25,794 bases of DNA from a virus. The notes under the pieces are model-generated. The model had not been told where the DNA came from, made no database searches, and saw nothing but the letters and a program-made list of their open reading frames with translations. This document shows positions 3,735-22,624 of the stretch, one piece after another. Where the stretch lies: positions 1 to 25,794 of the IMG/VR virus record IMGVR_UViG_3300017746_000129; one strand, given 5' to 3'. The number at the start of each line of letters is the position of its first letter. The stretch's first letter is position 1. The position numbers were made by a program, and so were the translations under genes.

Positions 3735-4139
3735 ATGAAAAAAATTCTTCAATTTATAACTGGAGGTCTCATCAAAGATATAGGTAAAGTAATAGATGAT
3801 CTAGTAACTACAGATGAAGAAAGACTCGAGGCTAAACTAAAAGTTGAAGAGCTGCTAGAGCAAGCAGACAAAGATGCTCAAGACCAGGTAACAGCAAGAT
3901 GGGAGTCGGATATGAAGTCCGATTCCTTCTTGTCTAAAAATATAAGGCCCATGGTTCTTATATACCTTACCTTTATATTTTCTGTATTAGCATTTTTTGA
4001 TGGTAACATAGGAGAGTTTTCAATAGCAGAGGATTATATACCTATATTCCAGTCGCTATTAATAACTGTGTATGGCGCTTATTTTGTAGGTCGTACGTGG
4101 GAAAAAGGTAAAAAAATAAGTAATAATAAAGATAACTAG
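3735..4139 (+). CDS. Phage holin, gene-transfer-agent/3TM type
   Basis: A 134-residue protein. The N-terminal half is amphipathic and charged (ITGGLIKDIGKVIDDLVTTD and a helix rich in Glu and Lys, 25-50). It is followed by ARWESDMKSDSFLSKNIRPM (54-73) and two clear membrane helices, about 74-90 (VLIYLTFIFSVLAFFDG) and 102-120 (IPIFQSLLITVYGAYFVGR). The 'W..DM.SDS.LSKNIRP' stretch followed by hydrophobic helices is the mark of the 3TM holin family first named for gene-transfer-agent release. It would open the inner membrane at the end of infection so that the 1867 peptidase reaches the wall. It begins two bases after the preceding stop. Confidence 0.85.
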   Translation: MKKILQFITGGLIKDIGKVIDDLVTTDEERLEAKLKVEELLEQADKDAQDQVTARWESDMKSDSFLSKNIRPMVLIYLTFIFSVLAFFDGNIGEFSIAEDYIPIFQSLLITVYGAYFVGRTWEKGKKISNNKDN

Positions 4140-4430: not shown

Positions 4431-4658
4431 ATGTTAAACGTTATAAGAAAAATCAGTATAGGCTCTGATTATAAAAATGATGCTATGCACTATTCTGTAG
4501 GCCAAGAGGTTTACGGTGGTCATAAGATTTCTCATATTATATTTCAAGAGTCAGATAATTCTTATAACATACATATTAAAAAAAACAACGAGGTATTGCC
4601 ATGGAAGAAATTTAATTCTAACATGGCTATATCTCTTGAGTATGATTTAGAATATTAA
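4431..4658 (+). CDS. Conserved small phage protein, beta-rich
   Basis: A 75-residue protein, MLNVIRKISIGSDYKNDAMH and onward, ending SNMAISLEYDLEY. It looks like a small beta-barrel or sheet, with strands at VGQEVYGG, ISHIIFQES, YNIHIKKN and AISLEYDL. It closely resembles uncharacterised proteins in environmental phages that share 'NVIRKISIG.DYKNDAMHY.VGQ' and 'WK.FNSNM..SLEY'. The start at 4431 is preferred because it follows the upstream stop by one base; an earlier in-frame ATG (4407) lies within the previous gene. The stop overlaps the next ATG (TAATG). The function is unknown. Confidence 0.75.
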   Translation: MLNVIRKISIGSDYKNDAMHYSVGQEVYGGHKISHIIFQESDNSYNIHIKKNNEVLPWKKFNSNMAISLEYDLEY

Positions 4659-5275
4659 TGAAAAGTATTTTTCAATTTATTGTTAAACCTATAGGTAATA
4701 GATATAACAATGAAATAAACATTGAAGATAAAGCGCTTATCATTAACGCTGGTATTGAAGATCACAAGTTTGTAAATAGACTTGCTGAAGTTATAGAAGT
4801 TCCAGCCGCTATAAAAACCCCTATAAAAAAAGGTGATAAAGTAATAGTTCACTTTAATCTTTTTAGAAGATGGTACGATATTAAGGGTAATGAAAAAAAT
4901 AGCAATAAGTATTTTAAAGATGATATGTATTTTGCAAGTTCTGAACAAATATATATGTACCAAAAACAAAACAAATGGTCTACAAATTCTGACTATTGTT
5001 TTGTAAAACCTATTTTAGAAACTTCTAATTTAAAGGGCGATAAATTAAAAAGCCTACGTGGTATACTAAAATATGGTAATAGTTCTTTAGAAGCCATGGG
5101 AGTTAATCCTGGAGACTATGTAGGGTTTAAACCCGGCAGTGAGTTTGAGTTTGTGGTTAATAAAGAACTTTTTTATTGTATGAAATCAAATGATATTGTT
5201 GTTAAACATGAACGTAAAGGAAACGAAACAGAATATAATCCAAGCTGGGCAGAGAGCAGTAGAGGAATTAATTAA
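4658..5275 (+). CDS. Double-unit GroES-like protein
   Basis: A 205-residue protein that reads as two co-chaperonin-like units in tandem. Unit 1 starts FIVKPIGNR (7-15). It has a loop with LIIN (27-30) where GroES carries its IVL contact, then RLAEVIEVP (41-49) and PIKKGDKVIVHFN (55-67), the pattern 'G.V..VG ... VK.GD.V.F', ending SEQIYMY. Unit 2 starts again with CFVKPI (114-119) and continues GILKYGN (135-141), NPGDYVGFKPGSEFEF (150-165) and a final strand NDIVV (178-182). The tail EYNPSW is conserved-looking. The insert FRRWYDIKGNEKNSNKYF is not found in standard GroES. It is twice the normal co-chaperonin length. It may be an alternative GroEL lid, as T4 gp31 is for capsid folding, or a GroES-derived structural protein. 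Assignment is from pattern only. Confidence 0.68.
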   Translation: MKSIFQFIVKPIGNRYNNEINIEDKALIINAGIEDHKFVNRLAEVIEVPAAIKTPIKKGDKVIVHFNLFRRWYDIKGNEKNSNKYFKDDMYFASSEQIYMYQKQNKWSTNSDYCFVKPILETSNLKGDKLKSLRGILKYGNSSLEAMGVNPGDYVGFKPGSEFEFVVNKELFYCMKSNDIVVKHERKGNETEYNPSWAESSRGIN

Positions 5276-15818: not shown

Positions 15819-18800
15819 ATGGCTGAAGTTAAAAACGCTTTTATTAAATCTAAAATGAATCAAGACTTGGATGCTAGATTGCTTCCAAGCGGCGAGTATA
15901 GAGAAGGATTTAATATACAGGTTAGTAAATCAGAAGGTCCTGACGTTGGAGCGTTAGAGAACGTGCTTGGTAATCAAATGCTAGCGACAAGTCAACAAGA
16001 CTTGGAACAATTAACAGGGCTTTCAACTATAATCATAATAGGTGCTTATGTTGATAAAAGTAGTGATACTTTATTTTTATTCATAACAGACAATACTGGT
16101 AGTGAAAAATATAATCCTAATGCTAATAACTTTGTATATTCTTTTAATGTAACAAGTGAATTATATACTAGATTATTAACTGGTAATTTTTTAAATTTCC
16201 ACGTCAACTACCCAATTATTGGTATTAATCTTTTAGAAAATTTATTGTTTTTTACAGACAACAGAAACCAACCAAGAAAAATAAACATAAATAATATAAA
16301 GGCTGGTAGTAATGATTCTTTATATTATACTAATGAAGATCAAATATCTGTAGCTAAATATAACCCTTATCAAGCTATAAATTTATATAAGTATCAAAAA
16401 GATCCTGTACCTTATGGAGGTGAAGGTTTTGTAACTACAATGCAGGATGTTGTTAGTGAAAAACTACCTGATGGTACTACTGATAATCCTTACTATAACG
16501 AAAAGTACCCTGGTGATGAAGATTTTTTACAAGATAAATTTGTTAGATTTGGTTATAGATTTAAATTTGAAGATGGTGAATACTCTGTATTTTCTACGTT
16601 TACACAAGAAGCTTTTATACCTCAACAAGATGGTTATTTTTTAGGTAACACGCAATATACTTCAGACCCAAACATTACTGATGACGAAGGTAACACATAT
16701 AGAAGCGGTGAAGTTTCTTTTATGATTAACAAGGCTAATCAAATAGAACTAATAATTCCTCTTGAGTCTGAAAGTTTTATTGAAGCTCAAAATATTGTTG
16801 AAGTAGATATTCTTTATAAAGAATCAGATGGACTTGCCGTGCAAGTTGTAGATACATTAGATTTAAGTTATATCAATAAACAAAGAGAAGTATCTCCTGG
16901 AGTTTTTGAATATATAAATAAAAAAGAATACGCTGGTAATTGGTTTTTGCAATATACTTATCAAGGTAGAAAACCTTATAAAACATTACCAGAAAGTCAA
17001 TTGCTTAGGGTTTTTGATAAGATACCTGTAAAAGCTTTCGGTCAAGAGGTTTCAGGTAATAGAATTATATATTCTAATTTTCAAGATAAACACACGCCAC
17101 CAATTAATTTAAATTATAATGTAGCGGTTACTAATAAGTATCAATTTGAAGCTGATCAACCAGGGCAGCTTATTAATTCTACGCAATATAGAACAAGTAT
17201 TGTAGAATACCCAGAGCATACTGTAAAGCAGGATAGAAATTACCAAGTAGGAATTGTTTTGTCAGATAGATACGGAAGAACATCTTCTGTTTTACTTTCT
17301 AGCGTTGATAGTTTTTCAGATGAAAATGAAGGTATTTTTTACGGATCAACCGTTTTTAATAAATACATAAATAAAAGTCAATTTGATTCTGATTACGCGC
17401 CAAACGATTGGCAGGGCGATTCTATTAAATTAATATTTAACGACACTATAAACACAGCTCCAAACCCAATAACGCTTTATCCAGGTGTTTATAATGGAGA
17501 CTCAACAAAACCTGAATATAATCCGTTAGGTTGGTATAGTTATAAAGTTGTAGTAAAACAATTAGAACAAGAGTATTATAATGTATACCTACCTGGTATA
17601 CTAGAAGGCGATCCTAACGCAGCCACAACTGCTGGTAATCCAACTGGTACAATAGCTACAATACCTTTAATAGGTGATAACGTAAATAAAATTCCTAAAG
17701 AATTAACAAATGTAAATCCTACTCAAGAACAATTTACAAGTAGTACTGTTTTATTCCCAAGAGTTACAGCTAATTTTGTTAATGGCAATGATCCTACTTT
17801 TAATGAAGCGTTTTTCCCTACAAGTAGAGGTGTTAATGTAGCTGCTCTAGGTGATTATAGAGATTTGTTAAGAGAAAAAAATGGCGATCCTATTGACGCG
17901 CTACCTGATGTTTATGAATCAACAACAAACCCTTTAGTAGCTAGGCTTGCGACTGCTGATTCTGGAGTAGCTTATTCAAGTGATATCCTAGGAAGTTTTC
18001 CTTCAACTCAACCCACTCAACCATATCCTTTTTATTTAAGTGTTTTAGAAACAAACCCTGTAGTTTCAAGAATAGAATTATATTATGAAACTTCTACATC
18101 TGGAATTATACAAGATTTAAACCTAGCTACTATAGAAGGCGAAGATATACCAACGGATTTAATTAACTGGGATTTTAATTTAAACGAAAGCGATCCTGTT
18201 GGCACTGCTATAACAGATCCTTTTCACTTACAAACTACAGATCCGATTTTTGGTCTTATTGAAGCTAAAGACGTTACGCTTAACAGTTGGAATGTTTTTG
18301 ATGAAAGCGGTAATGATAGATTTAATGATTTTGAGGTAATTAAAATTAATAAAAATACACAGGATTTAAATGGCAATGCAACAAACTATGATAGATTTTA
18401 TTTAAAATCAAATAATACTTTTGTGTTTACGTCAGAATCTATAGGCGCTTCTGGTAGTTTTGTATTTGATTTTAATTTTAGTTTAACAGGCGAAACAGTA
18501 AGCGAAAATTTTGCTAGAGAAGGTGATTTAGGTAATGCCGCTCCTGTAATATTAGCCACGGATGGTTCTGCAAACCTACCAACATCTATACAAATAGATT
18601 CTAGTGTAGTAGATATATATCAATTTACAGGTAAAAATGGTTCTGTCAGTCAAAATCAAGGTGATAGAATTATAGATTTATTTTGGAGTATAATTTCAGG
18701 AAATGAATCTGGAAACTTTAACATTACAGCTAATGGTCTTTTACAGGCTATTGGTGATAATGTTACTGGTAGTTTTAATTTAACAATACAGTTAGAAGAC

Positions 18801-21098
18801 GGTGGTGGGGCAAGTGACACATATTTGCTAAATATTACTTCAGATGTTATACCTAATCTTACTTTTACTAATGATAATTTTTGGTGTACACCTATTGCGC
18901 CAATAACTCTTAGCACTGGTAATGGTAGTAGCTCTGGATTTTATTGGACATCTTCAGCTGACAATGCTCAGTTGAACGAACCATATTTAAGAAGTGTAAC
19001 TCCTAGTTTACAGCTACCTAGCTTGTTAAGTGGATATGACACTAGATCACAGACAGCGCAACAATCAGGCTGTGGCATGTTTACTTTTTCTAATACTAAT
19101 TTTACCAGCAAAGGAAACTACACTGATAACTTAGTTGTAAACCAAAGTCCACAAGCTAATACAAACCTACAATCAGGAACCGCGTTTGTACAGGTTACGG
19201 CTAATACTAGACAACCTTACTATAGCGATGCGTCAGGCAGCGGCATTGGTCAAGGCTGCATAAATGGTTTTGATGGTTTATTAAAAGTTACATTTCCAAT
19301 AGTGTTACAATATAGAGACCCTAACAGCTCTAGCTATCCAAACAATTGGGTTACGGCTATTGATACTGAAGGTGTAGACTGTACTTTTGGAGGTGAGCAA
19401 CAAACTAGTAGTAACCCTAGACTTGCTTATAATAATAACTTTGGTTTTTCTAAATCAGGTGTATTAGTTGAAAGAAATATATCCAGCTTGTCTACGCCTG
19501 GCGGAAATCCAGGCGATACATCACAGGTTAATATACAAATGTTTAAAGAAGGATTAGACAGTTGGCAGCAACCTTATGAACAAACAGGTGGTGGAGATAA
19601 TATAGAAAATGGAGAGCAACAAGTTTCCGGTTGGACTATTAGTGTTAAAAATGGTGGCGAAATAATTAATCCATCAACTTTTAAAAGAATACCTGTAAAC
19701 ATGGTTACTACTCAAAGTGCCATTAGATTTTTTGATTTATACTTAACAAGAAATAACTCAAACGCAACAACGCCTTTTACTGTAACTGTAAGAGTTAATG
19801 GCGAAGACGCTGTTACAAAATATGTTACAAATAATAATTTTAATAATTCTTATAAACTCAACTTAATAAATGTCGATGCCCCGCTTGGTTCGCTATTTAC
19901 AGTTTTTATAGAAGCTGATAGTGATATATCTTTTAATGAAATAAAATATGAATTAATAGACGGTAGAAGTGGTCAAGCTAGAACAATTTCAGAGTTTCCT
20001 ACATCTTTTGAATATGTAGCTACTTCTTCTACAGATGCGGTTTACACAACTGTTTTAGCATCTGAATCTAAACTTACAAAAACTTTTGCTTTTGGTAGAG
20101 ATCAATACTACAACGAAAGACCAGATAGATTTGGTGATTACAGACTTATAGTTAGATATCCTTTTGGAGATTACCCAGCGCCTGTTTCTTCAACGTGTGT
20201 TGGTAATGGTTTAGCTACAGTAACGCCTACTGGTTGCCCAGACAACGATGTGTTTAAGTCTACAAACAACATTGATTTTAGTGATGTGAAAATGCAATAC
20301 GGTGATTTCTATAATCCTGTAGCAGCTGGAAAACCTTGTTTACCTACAGAGTATAGTGATATTATTAATCCTTCTTCTTACGAATATAAAATATCTACAA
20401 TACCTACTAACAATACAGACGAAAACACAGCTGTAGAATTAGCTTCTAGAATACTGCCTACAAGAACTGTATACGCTAGAGAGTGGCATTGTAAATATAT
20501 AACAAAGTTATATACAGACGCCGCACTTCAAAATGAAGTAACAAATTTAGTTAGTGGTTGGTATAGTTATTCTTTAGCAACTGACGTCTCTAGAGTTGAA
20601 ACTAGTGGCACACAAAGTTATGACTTTGTATTATCACAAAATGATAGATCACATTCTCAAGAGCGAGGAGCTACGGTTGCTAGTATAGATTCTAACGAAG
20701 AAAGAAGATGGGTAGCTTATTTTGCTAATGGTGTTAAGCGAGCTGCATCAGCCGTGCCTAATATATTTGGAACAACCGGTTTTAGTGATATAGATGATGA
20801 TAACGACGATGCTTGTGTTGGTGTTAATATATACCCACAAAATTATTTTGATAACGAAAATCAATTTGATGGTCAAGAAAAAACATTAGTGTATACTACC
20901 TGTGGTGGCGTTCCTAGTATAATAATATTTGGTCCTAACGGTATTATTGGTCAAAATACACAAGAGTATTTTACAGTTTGTTTAGATAGAACTAAACTTA
21001 TAACCGTAGATAATCAACAAATAGATCCAGAAATTGATTCTGATAGCGATTGTAGTTCAGGTTTGTTTGATTCTGATTTAAATAAGCGAACGGACTAA
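15819..21098 (+). CDS. Giant tail/stabilisation-type structural protein with Cys-rich C-terminal module
   Basis: A 1759-residue protein, the largest here. The N-terminus (KNAFIKSKMNQDLDARLLPS, then GEYREGFNIQVSKSEG and DVGALENVLGN) is the typical start of crAss-like 'stabilisation' tail proteins. Residues 1-500 appear beta-propeller-like (repeated strands such as NLLFFTDNRNQPRKININ). Residues about 500-900 are variable. Residues about 910-1014 resemble a cadherin- or Ig-like domain (SIISGNESGNFNITANGLLQ, NLTIQLEDGGGASDTYLLNI). From C1023 onward the chain gains twelve cysteines where there were none, with several sheet-like blocks and an acidic end (DPEIDSDSDCSSG). The C-terminal 740 residues are probably an exposed, disulfide-stabilised or metal-binding host-contact module. 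The next gene may be the continuation of the same structural unit. Confidence 0.75.
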   Translation: MAEVKNAFIKSKMNQDLDARLLPSGEYREGFNIQVSKSEGPDVGALENVLGNQMLATSQQDLEQLTGLSTIIIIGAYVDKSSDTLFLFITDNTGSEKYNPNANNFVYSFNVTSELYTRLLTGNFLNFHVNYPIIGINLLENLLFFTDNRNQPRKININNIKAGSNDSLYYTNEDQISVAKYNPYQAINLYKYQKDPVPYGGEGFVTTMQDVVSEKLPDGTTDNPYYNEKYPGDEDFLQDKFVRFGYRFKFEDGEYSVFSTFTQEAFIPQQDGYFLGNTQYTSDPNITDDEGNTYRSGEVSFMINKANQIELIIPLESESFIEAQNIVEVDILYKESDGLAVQVVDTLDLSYINKQREVSPGVFEYINKKEYAGNWFLQYTYQGRKPYKTLPESQLLRVFDKIPVKAFGQEVSGNRIIYSNFQDKHTPPINLNYNVAVTNKYQFEADQPGQLINSTQYRTSIVEYPEHTVKQDRNYQVGIVLSDRYGRTSSVLLSSVDSFSDENEGIFYGSTVFNKYINKSQFDSDYAPNDWQGDSIKLIFNDTINTAPNPITLYPGVYNGDSTKPEYNPLGWYSYKVVVKQLEQEYYNVYLPGILEGDPNAATTAGNPTGTIATIPLIGDNVNKIPKELTNVNPTQEQFTSSTVLFPRVTANFVNGNDPTFNEAFFPTSRGVNVAALGDYRDLLREKNGDPIDALPDVYESTTNPLVARLATADSGVAYSSDILGSFPSTQPTQPYPFYLSVLETNPVVSRIELYYETSTSGIIQDLNLATIEGEDIPTDLINWDFNLNESDPVGTAITDPFHLQTTDPIFGLIEAKDVTLNSWNVFDESGNDRFNDFEVIKINKNTQDLNGNATNYDRFYLKSNNTFVFTSESIGASGSFVFDFNFSLTGETVSENFAREGDLGNAAPVILATDGSANLPTSIQIDSSVVDIYQFTGKNGSVSQNQGDRIIDLFWSIISGNESGNFNITANGLLQAIGDNVTGSFNLTIQLEDGGGASDTYLLNITSDVIPNLTFTNDNFWCTPIAPITLSTGNGSSSGFYWTSSADNAQLNEPYLRSVTPSLQLPSLLSGYDTRSQTAQQSGCGMFTFSNTNFTSKGNYTDNLVVNQSPQANTNLQSGTAFVQVTANTRQPYYSDASGSGIGQGCINGFDGLLKVTFPIVLQYRDPNSSSYPNNWVTAIDTEGVDCTFGGEQQTSSNPRLAYNNNFGFSKSGVLVERNISSLSTPGGNPGDTSQVNIQMFKEGLDSWQQPYEQTGGGDNIENGEQQVSGWTISVKNGGEIINPSTFKRIPVNMVTTQSAIRFFDLYLTRNNSNATTPFTVTVRVNGEDAVTKYVTNNNFNNSYKLNLINVDAPLGSLFTVFIEADSDISFNEIKYELIDGRSGQARTISEFPTSFEYVATSSTDAVYTTVLASESKLTKTFAFGRDQYYNERPDRFGDYRLIVRYPFGDYPAPVSSTCVGNGLATVTPTGCPDNDVFKSTNNIDFSDVKMQYGDFYNPVAAGKPCLPTEYSDIINPSSYEYKISTIPTNNTDENTAVELASRILPTRTVYAREWHCKYITKLYTDAALQNEVTNLVSGWYSYSLATDVSRVETSGTQSYDFVLSQNDRSHSQERGATVASIDSNEERRWVAYFANGVKRAASAVPNIFGTTGFSDIDDDNDDACVGVNIYPQNYFDNENQFDGQEKTLVYTTCGGVPSIIIFGPNGIIGQNTQEYFTVCLDRTKLITVDNQQIDPEIDSDSDCSSGLFDSDLNKRTD

Positions 21099-21136
21099 CT
21101 AGAGTAATATAATAAAAAAATAAGTGATAATAAAAT

Positions 21137-22624
21137 ATGCCAGCTATAATAGAAGTTAAGTATTTTAACGCGTTTATATTAAGAAAAACATACAACGCAG
21201 GTGATGTTCCTACTTGGGGTGGTTCTAGGGGTGATAATACTTATCCTCAGGCAGGCTTACAATTTGATACTAAATCTTGGTTTGTAGAAGAGGCTAGAAT
21301 AAAAGGCGGGTTTAATAATACGTCTGTAAGTTTTGGTACTAAAGCTTATTTAGTAGAGGAAGAACCACAAGCCTCTAAAAGAATTAACGCTCTTATATAC
21401 TCTGGTATATTCAACTCTAGAACTGGTGTTAATAATACTAATCAATTTCCGGCTGATAAAGATATAAGTAAAGCTGTAGATCCTGCAAATGGCAGTATAC
21501 AAAAGCTGCATGCTGAAGATACAAACCTTATTATATTTCAAGAAAATAAAATTAGTAGAGCTCTTATAGATAAAGATGCTATATATTCTGCTGAAGGTGG
21601 GGGTAGCGTTACGTCTTCAAATTTAGTTATAGGTCAAATAGTTCCTTACGCTGGTAACTTTGGTATAAGTAAAAACCCAGAAAGCTTTGCTGTATACGGT
21701 TTTAGAAAGTACTTTGTTGATAAAAATAGAAACGCTGTGCTTAGATTATCTCAAGACGGTCTTACAGAAATATCTAATTATGGTATGAAAGACTTTTTTA
21801 GAGATCAATTAACTTCTTTAGATTTAATTGTAAAAGAAAGGGGTAGAAAATCTGGTAAAATTATAGGTGGTTGGGACACATATACAAAGCAGTACGTTGT
21901 ATCTATGCAGCCGTCTGTTGATAATGAAAAACTAGCAGAATACGATAATTATAAAACACTTTCTTTTGATGAAGACGTAAGAGGTTGGACTAGTTTTTAT
22001 AACTATAAACCTTCATTTATGTTTAGTTTAAAAGGTAAATTTTATACTACACCAGTAGATTCAAGTAGTATAAATAGCGGGGTTTATCTTCATAACGCAC
22101 CGGATATAGACCCTGATTCACCTAGAGCTAATTTTTACGGTAGACAATATAATTCTAGTATAAAATTTATATTTAATCCTAAAGTTAGTTTATCTAAAAA
22201 CTTTAAAACAATTAACTATGAAGGTAGCAATGGTTGGCAAGTTGATTCTTTTATTTCTGATACAACAGGATTAGGATCACCTAATATTAATCAATTGGAT
22301 CCTAAAGCATCTGCTAGTCAAGACACTACAGCTGTAGTACTAAGTTATAACGAAGGTGCTTACGATTCTTATGGAAATCAAGCACCTAACCAATTGATAC
22401 CACCAGTGTTTCATGCTGGCTTTAATAGAAAAGAAAACAAATATATGGCTAATTTAATTAGCACTAGCGGGCCTGCATATGGCGAAGTATTGTTTAACGG
22501 TTCTATGACTGGGATTAAAGGTCAATTTGCAGAAGTAACAATGAGTACAGATTCTACAACAGATCCAGGTAAAATGAAAGAACTTTTTGCTGTATCATCT
22601 GAGTATGTAGACTCTGCGTATTAA
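21137..22624 (+). CDS. Tail stabilisation-type protein, second part
   Basis: A 495-residue beta-rich protein with strongly patterned segments. These are YNAGDVPTWGGSRGD (19-33), YPQAGLQFDTKSWFVEEARI (36-55), KGGFNNTSVSFGTKAYL (56-72), IYSGIFNSRTGVNNTNQFP (87-105) and EDTNLIIFQENKISRALIDK (126-145). Further on come IVPYAGNFGISKNPESFAVYG, FVDKNRNAVLRLSQDG and FDEDVRGWTSFYNYKPSFMF. The repeated Trp/Tyr/Asp strands suggest a beta-propeller, as in stabilisation or tail-hub proteins of marine Bacteroidota phages. The 38-base gap to the previous gene is A/T-rich with no Shine-Dalgarno, intron or frameshift signal. It is likely a partner subunit of the 15819 product and may form the tail base. Exact role uncertain. 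Confidence 0.75.
   Translation: MPAIIEVKYFNAFILRKTYNAGDVPTWGGSRGDNTYPQAGLQFDTKSWFVEEARIKGGFNNTSVSFGTKAYLVEEEPQASKRINALIYSGIFNSRTGVNNTNQFPADKDISKAVDPANGSIQKLHAEDTNLIIFQENKISRALIDKDAIYSAEGGGSVTSSNLVIGQIVPYAGNFGISKNPESFAVYGFRKYFVDKNRNAVLRLSQDGLTEISNYGMKDFFRDQLTSLDLIVKERGRKSGKIIGGWDTYTKQYVVSMQPSVDNEKLAEYDNYKTLSFDEDVRGWTSFYNYKPSFMFSLKGKFYTTPVDSSSINSGVYLHNAPDIDPDSPRANFYGRQYNSSIKFIFNPKVSLSKNFKTINYEGSNGWQVDSFISDTTGLGSPNINQLDPKASASQDTTAVVLSYNEGAYDSYGNQAPNQLIPPVFHAGFNRKENKYMANLISTSGPAYGEVLFNGSMTGIKGQFAEVTMSTDSTTDPGKMKELFAVSSEYVDSAY

Follow-up and report, generated by a model that had tools for sequence, protein, structure and literature searches.

Sequence and model evidence for a crAss-like phage muzzle divided between two genes at a surface loop that carries a variable appendage

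The locus at positions 15819 to 22624 of the IMG/VR virus record IMGVR_UViG_3300017746_000129 raises the question of what is encoded by a gene for a giant tail-region protein whose cysteines all lie in its last part. The stretch of DNA that was analyzed, here called the window, comprises positions 1 to 25,794 of this record. A first-pass annotation had listed open reading frames for proteins of 1759 and 495 residues at 15819-21098 and 21137-22624, and had taken residues 1023-1759 of the larger one for a foreign, exposed and possibly disulfide-bonded receptor module, swapped into a tail protein whose other parts look conserved, with the onset of cysteines as its mark. Both reading frames are present, and the count is exact: there is no cysteine up to residue 1022, and there are twelve from C1023 onward. 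The genes, called P and Q, are:

15819..21098, + strand: gene P, 1759 aa, very probably the N-terminal subunit of a split muzzle
21137..22624, + strand: gene Q, 495 aa, very probably the C-terminal subunit of the same muzzle

The muzzle is the tail-tip gatekeeper of crAss-like phages. Protein Q matched the Pfam families crAss_MUZ_C (43 bits) and crAss_MUZ (last part; 33.9 bits), for which the curated cut-offs are 27, and P alone gave no Pfam match. PHROG 14478, which matched P with an E value of 6.7e-51, spans both genes in order, with profile positions 1-181 on the start of P and 919-1219 on Q. Both matches fall within one annotated gene in phi38:1, elemoF and Gundel_1, where the reading frames were checked. 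In the crAss001 muzzle gp44 (1371 aa), the Q profile matched residues 1057-1293 (E 1.6e-14) and the N-terminal profile residues 29-155. At the sequence level, neither the individual proteins nor profiles gave a significant match in the PDB. The predicted model of P 1-1022 (pLDDT 78) had the crAss001 muzzle 7qol_P as its best PDB match by Foldseek (E 2.7e-9), and VIA-align placed P 61-768 on gp44 64-934 (7qol/7qok) with Z 11.8 and rmsd 4.5 over 350 residues. Cadherin chains scored close behind, on another part of the same model.

From the Pfam, PHROG 14478, gp44 profile and model matches we conclude that P and Q are two muzzle parts, very probably two subunits of a split crAss-like muzzle that would gate the DNA channel at the tail tip. 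As judged from sequence and model comparison, P and Q are homologous to different portions of the single-chain muzzle of crAss001 and of cultured flavobacterial phages, Q presumably corresponding to the remainder of the propeller and the C-terminal domain. Since the window, like one clade of 63 tree rows, encodes the muzzle by two genes, we class it as a split variant and not as an ordinary crAss-like muzzle.

The gene order in the window is TerL, portal, capsid, two virion genes, P and Q, with terminase, portal and capsid matched at family level. The succession of portal, capsid, ring/virion genes and muzzle is identical from the portal onward in the closest cultured relatives of P and Q, which are Cellulophaga phi38:1 (gp97), the Flavobacterium elemo phages (elemoF) and Tenacibaculum Gundel_1. 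Their muzzle-like structural proteins are encoded by one gene and measure 1324-1493 aa. In crAss001, gp44 (PDB 7qok, 7qol; PMC10172136) likewise follows the ring-protein genes, and its homologous N- and C-terminal parts stand in the same order as P and Q. Three further genes lie upstream of the terminase:

1867-2229: likely endolysin/peptidase (PHROG 894)
3735-4139: likely holin (PHROG 3427)
4658-5275: GroES-like co-chaperonin, just upstream of the terminase (PHROG 13932, E 1.3e-24)

The position of the break was examined by aligning the two proteins with muzzles that are undivided at this point. The relevant parts of P, the first of which is delimited by conservation and by the VIA-align match, are:

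15819..18113, + strand: conserved muzzle core, P residues 1-765
18048..18092, + strand: last strand before the break, P residues 744-758, ETNPVVSRIELYYET, whose counterpart in one-piece muzzles is FETVPVDTNQDIYYELS

By comparison with crAss001, the core would comprise the ring-joining part, the start of the propeller and Ig-like insertions. Against relatives that keep both parts together, a P profile aligned over P 1-625 (E about 1e-74) and gave a weak second match, P 742-759, immediately ahead of the Q region. A joined profile of P 560-800 and Q 1-400 aligned over its full length to undivided relatives (E 1.3e-51, 1.6e-52 and 4.8e-60), pairing ETNPVVSRIELYYETS of P with the same one-piece strand and MPAIIEVKYFNAF of Q with APAIIDL..FNAF. 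Residues E744, S750 and E757 of P are invariant across 59 relatives. In the undivided protein, about 22 loop residues separate the P-type and Q-type strands. The structure match stops at P 768 / gp44 934, and the G-H insertion of the crAss001 IG2 domain covers residues 940-1012 (PMC10172136).

The joined-profile alignment and the end of the structure match together locate the break, by comparison with crAss001, at the IG2 G-H loop, a placement that depends on alignments of about 30% identity and on a model. On this evidence the chain is interrupted at a short exposed loop between two neighboring strands, and Q resumes on the next strand. The site occupied by residues 765-1759 of P is thus taken up in other muzzles by a short loop or by an insertion of 72 residues. 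Whereas gp44 is one chain with a large crass domain, the window has two genes and a smaller insertion at that place: P has about 85 residues at approximately 656-740, against about 320 in relatives undivided there (L155), and from this difference in length the crass domain of P seems reduced.

Compared with gp44, about 1,000 residues are added to P at the G-H loop, which by alignment and model form an outer appendage at the break point. The phi38:1, elemo and Gundel_1 proteins have neither the cadherin-like pair nor the distal module at this loop, and these phages lack the junction element described below. According to the 2023 structure paper, muzzles differ in length because of insertions in their crass and IG2 regions, and such an appendage is consistent with this (PMC10172136). 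Its parts are:

18141..18851, + strand: two cadherin-like Ig domains, P residues 775-1011, first part of the appendage
18861..21095, + strand: distal module with all 12 cysteines, P residues 1015-1759
19419..20018, + strand: cysteine-free insertion within the distal module, P residues 1201-1400

The Ig/cadherin-like assignment made in the first-pass annotation agrees with the model, in which P 775-1011 resemble a cadherin domain pair (Z 10-11.5 with cadherin chains; Z 10.3 and rmsd 2.3 for a single domain by itself). A region the size of this pair, 222-310 aa, is present in all 81 aligned sequences, and the distal part that comes after it measures 82-831 aa. The predicted model of P 1012-1759 had pLDDT 63 and pTM 0.62, and its fold search returned no Foldseek match at E <= 0.001, the best Z being 6 for a generic beta-sandwich. 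Residues 1015-1200 and 1401-1650 are common to about half of the clade, while the insertion between them is complete only in the window and L006 (occupancy 0.01-0.3). Part of this insertion is beta-sandwich-like, a generic match of low confidence (Z up to 6, about 85 residues).

The question of a foreign module can be addressed by comparing the parts of P among relatives. The first 500 or so residues and the product of the gene at 21137 are conserved parts, as had been expected. A module boundary at 1022/1023 finds no counterpart in the profile and structure comparisons, by which the clade-specific part already begins near residue 765. The distal part of P is clade-specific, variable in length and faster evolving than the core, and region 1023-1759 was detectable by tblastn in 48 of 80 aligned relatives. 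The expectation that this region be variable or absent in relatives was borne out across the clade, but not in the nearest relatives L006 and L007, where identity is 84% in the distal part, 78% over residues 1-500, 70% in the middle and 88-89% in Q.

A recent acquisition would fit the onset of cysteines at 1023, the excess variability and evolutionary rate of the distal part, and a few sequence pairs that suggest exchange. In two pairs, similarity of core and distal part diverges (L126/L134, core 0.51 and distal 0.79; L038/L054, core 0.92 and distal 0.26), which suggests that the appendage may occasionally be exchanged elsewhere in the clade. Other observations point the opposite way. Codon use has no step at 1022, with a synonymous codon distance across this position of 0.084 vs 0.092 +/- 0.014 in shuffles and similar GC3. 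The nearest relative L006 retains, besides the 84% identity, 12/12 cysteines. Over all pairs, similarity of the core correlates with that of the distal part (r 0.80), close to the value for core and Q (0.85). These comparisons of the parts of P indicate a variable appendage without a boundary at 1022, and a foreign receptor-binding module recently swapped onto this tail protein is very unlikely, a reading largely refuted for this phage.

The cysteine distribution itself is real. The twelve residues are 1023, 1085, 1147, 1188, 1460, 1473, 1507, 1558, 1666, 1695, 1721 and 1745; if placed at random, an N-terminal gap of this length has p about 3e-5, and any such gap p about 4e-4. Most virion proteins of the window are free of cysteine (portal, 0 in 802 residues; the 400-aa and 419-aa proteins and Q, none), so that the N-terminal part of P is not unusual and the enrichment lies at the distal end. 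Among 81 relatives, the number of cysteines per 100 aa rose from 0.23 for the core and 0.48 for the cadherin-like pair to 1.11 for the distal part, and Q had 0.09. Density was higher in the distal part than in the core in 62 of these 81, with a p-value that is only indicative because the sequences are related. Distal enrichment is a family-wide trend. Core and cadherin pair are wholly cysteine-free in 10/81 relatives, which limits the sharp step at 1022 to a few branches.

The cysteines of P lie within the shared stretches and the C-terminal 100 residues, with none in the 1201-1400 insertion. Their retention was no better than that of an average residue, both at 84% identity (12/12, p 0.13) and at 24% identity (5/12, p 0.15), and cysteine conservation was rejected as evidence for disulfides since it is not above background. 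The cysteine step had pointed to the right gene, for another reason than supposed, and had left unseen that P and Q are halves of one known protein.

A split muzzle implies that Q is produced separately. The alternative is that P and Q yield one polypeptide by frameshifting, stop readthrough or ribosome bypass, so that the muzzle would not truly be split. The gaps between the genes, mostly <45 nt, and the presence of a conserved element between them would suit such a mechanism. At the end of P, however, all three stop codons occur (TAA in 49 loci, TAG in 14, TGA in 1), and the lengths of the gaps are spread evenly over the three frames (26/24/23). These two findings make readthrough or frameshifting unlikely and separate translation of Q the simplest solution. 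The high variability of the P C-terminus, the nearly fixed distance of the Q ATG from the element, and the long gaps with small ORFs at some loci also speak against a single polypeptide, which we regard as extremely improbable. Separate subunits, with Q translated from its own ATG, remain the preferred reading.

The long gaps, of 390-438 nt, were found in L106, L111-L115, L119, L120, L131 and L135. That of L106 contains an 88-aa ORF, and those of L131 and L135 a 137-aa ORF with a stretch, GGVLNK...DIDIAIFG, that looks nucleotidyltransferase-like by eye.

Motif counts identified a bipartite element just before Q:

21104..21131, + strand: junction element GTRAT-N13-AAGTRATWAT, 28 bp, GTAATATAATAAAAAAATAAGTGATAAT

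Of 64 non-redundant loci, 47 have the box AAGTRATWAT immediately ahead of the start of Q, where shuffles predict 0.06, and in 28 of these 47 a second GTRAT occurs exactly 20 nt further upstream. The full element was found once per locus in 60 loci, some of which share a contig, and always on the same strand; 59 copies are at a typical Q start and the 60th is ahead of a divergent Q-like start. No full element was found in loci whose muzzle gene is undivided or is split in the second way described below. When viral contigs were scanned by the element alone, 79 of the 120 matches listed had an ORF with a match to the Q profile no more than 25 nt away.

Because the element keeps a nearly fixed distance to the Q ATG but a variable one to the P stop, we favor the view that it is an expression signal for Q, and this is probably what the element is. 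Sigma-70-type promoters and terminators at the junction were not above shuffles. A Shine-Dalgarno reading was discarded: GTGAT could pair with the 16S rRNA end, but the equally frequent GTAAT could not. The element might alternatively be a recombination joint that allows the appendage of P to be exchanged while Q stays untouched. Its location, once per locus and precisely where the most variable coding stretch gives way to a highly conserved one, would suit such a joint, and some pairs show discordance between core and distal part. Exchange would need neither a nearly fixed distance to the Q ATG nor the 20-nt spacing of the boxes, and most pairs are not discordant. A recombination joint is accordingly unlikely, and we continue to consider the element a putative expression signal for Q.

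The spread of the split was followed in 222 loci with the N-terminal part, which are not all distinct. P is separate from a complete Q in 111 of them; in 38, one gene runs from the N-terminal part into the first part of Q, and a second gene encodes what is left of Q; 15 have a whole muzzle gene; and the remaining loci are cut off or ambiguous. Sequencing error as the cause of the split was rejected in view of >60 non-redundant split loci. When 108 non-redundant rows were placed in a tree, the 63 metagenomic rows with the window-type split came together on a single branch with full support, and a smaller bootstrap tree agrees (split branch 100/100). As the muzzle is whole in crAss001 and several flavobacterial phages, the simplest view is that the split is derived; the outgroup branch is very long, so that the direction, fission and not fusion, rests on parsimony. 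To our knowledge, no split-type phage is in culture. A scan of genome contigs gave mostly Bacteroidetes bins, a weak hint that these phages have Bacteroidetes hosts.

The only other tree row labeled as a window-type split is Maribacter phage Panino, which breaks at another place. Its muzzle is on two overlapping ORFs (L004, 6433-10346) with the break inside the Q region, and this may be an independent event or a frameshift. The second split type (L155, L189) resembles the window in having the muzzle in two genes and differs in the site, at about Q residue 265 at the start of the conserved GWxSF strand, in occurring in other lineages and in lacking the junction element. In L155, L156, L162, L189 and others, a gene of its own, of about 250 aa, encodes the last part of Q; in some loci this gene lies about 1 kb further downstream, beyond an intervening gene. 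PHROG 18548 (241 aa, annotated as of unknown function) is probably this separated part. The second type requires about five changes on the tree and has whole genes among its members, which indicates a more complex history.

To explain how a divided muzzle might work, we considered what is proposed for crAss001. The P and Q halves would fold together non-covalently, giving six P-Q pairs below the tail barrel, with a propeller begun by P and closed by Q. The cadherin-like stalk and the cysteine-bearing distal module would extend outward at the tip, where they would touch the cell surface, and the cysteines may have a role there. In crAss001, gate opening by contact has been proposed for the crass domain (PMC10172136). 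By analogy, the appendage would take over surface contact from the seemingly reduced crass domain, and this contact would open the gate. The ring-joining domain and propeller of crAss001 are stated to resemble the T7 gp12 nozzle (PMC10172136). A similar working could be extended to P and Q through crAss001 only, and the T7 nozzle is a small single chain without the distal parts. The distal module might also set host specificity.

Descriptions of the muzzle present it as one highly conserved protein that holds the crAss-type gate. We found no description of a divided muzzle gene in the literature searched, which covered a minority of subscription papers; one paper that mentions a propeller and a nozzle (PMC10607447) deals with a different protein. 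We see about even chances that the full picture holds, namely that a whole lineage builds its tail-tip gate from two genes by way of an opened surface loop, that the freed C-terminus has become a variable appendage replacing the crass-domain contact, that a lineage-specific 28-bp element, present almost only at the junction, serves Q, and that division at a second site arose independently elsewhere. Recognition of the split puts a name to P and Q, and to the second-type genes that resemble PHROG 18548, all of them annotated as structural or unknown. The junction element provides a simple search handle for the group; it is uncommon for a single junction to have a dedicated signal. The split would also locate the freely variable part of the tail tip, and its inheritance in a large uncultured group shows that this loop tolerates both a break and large additions.
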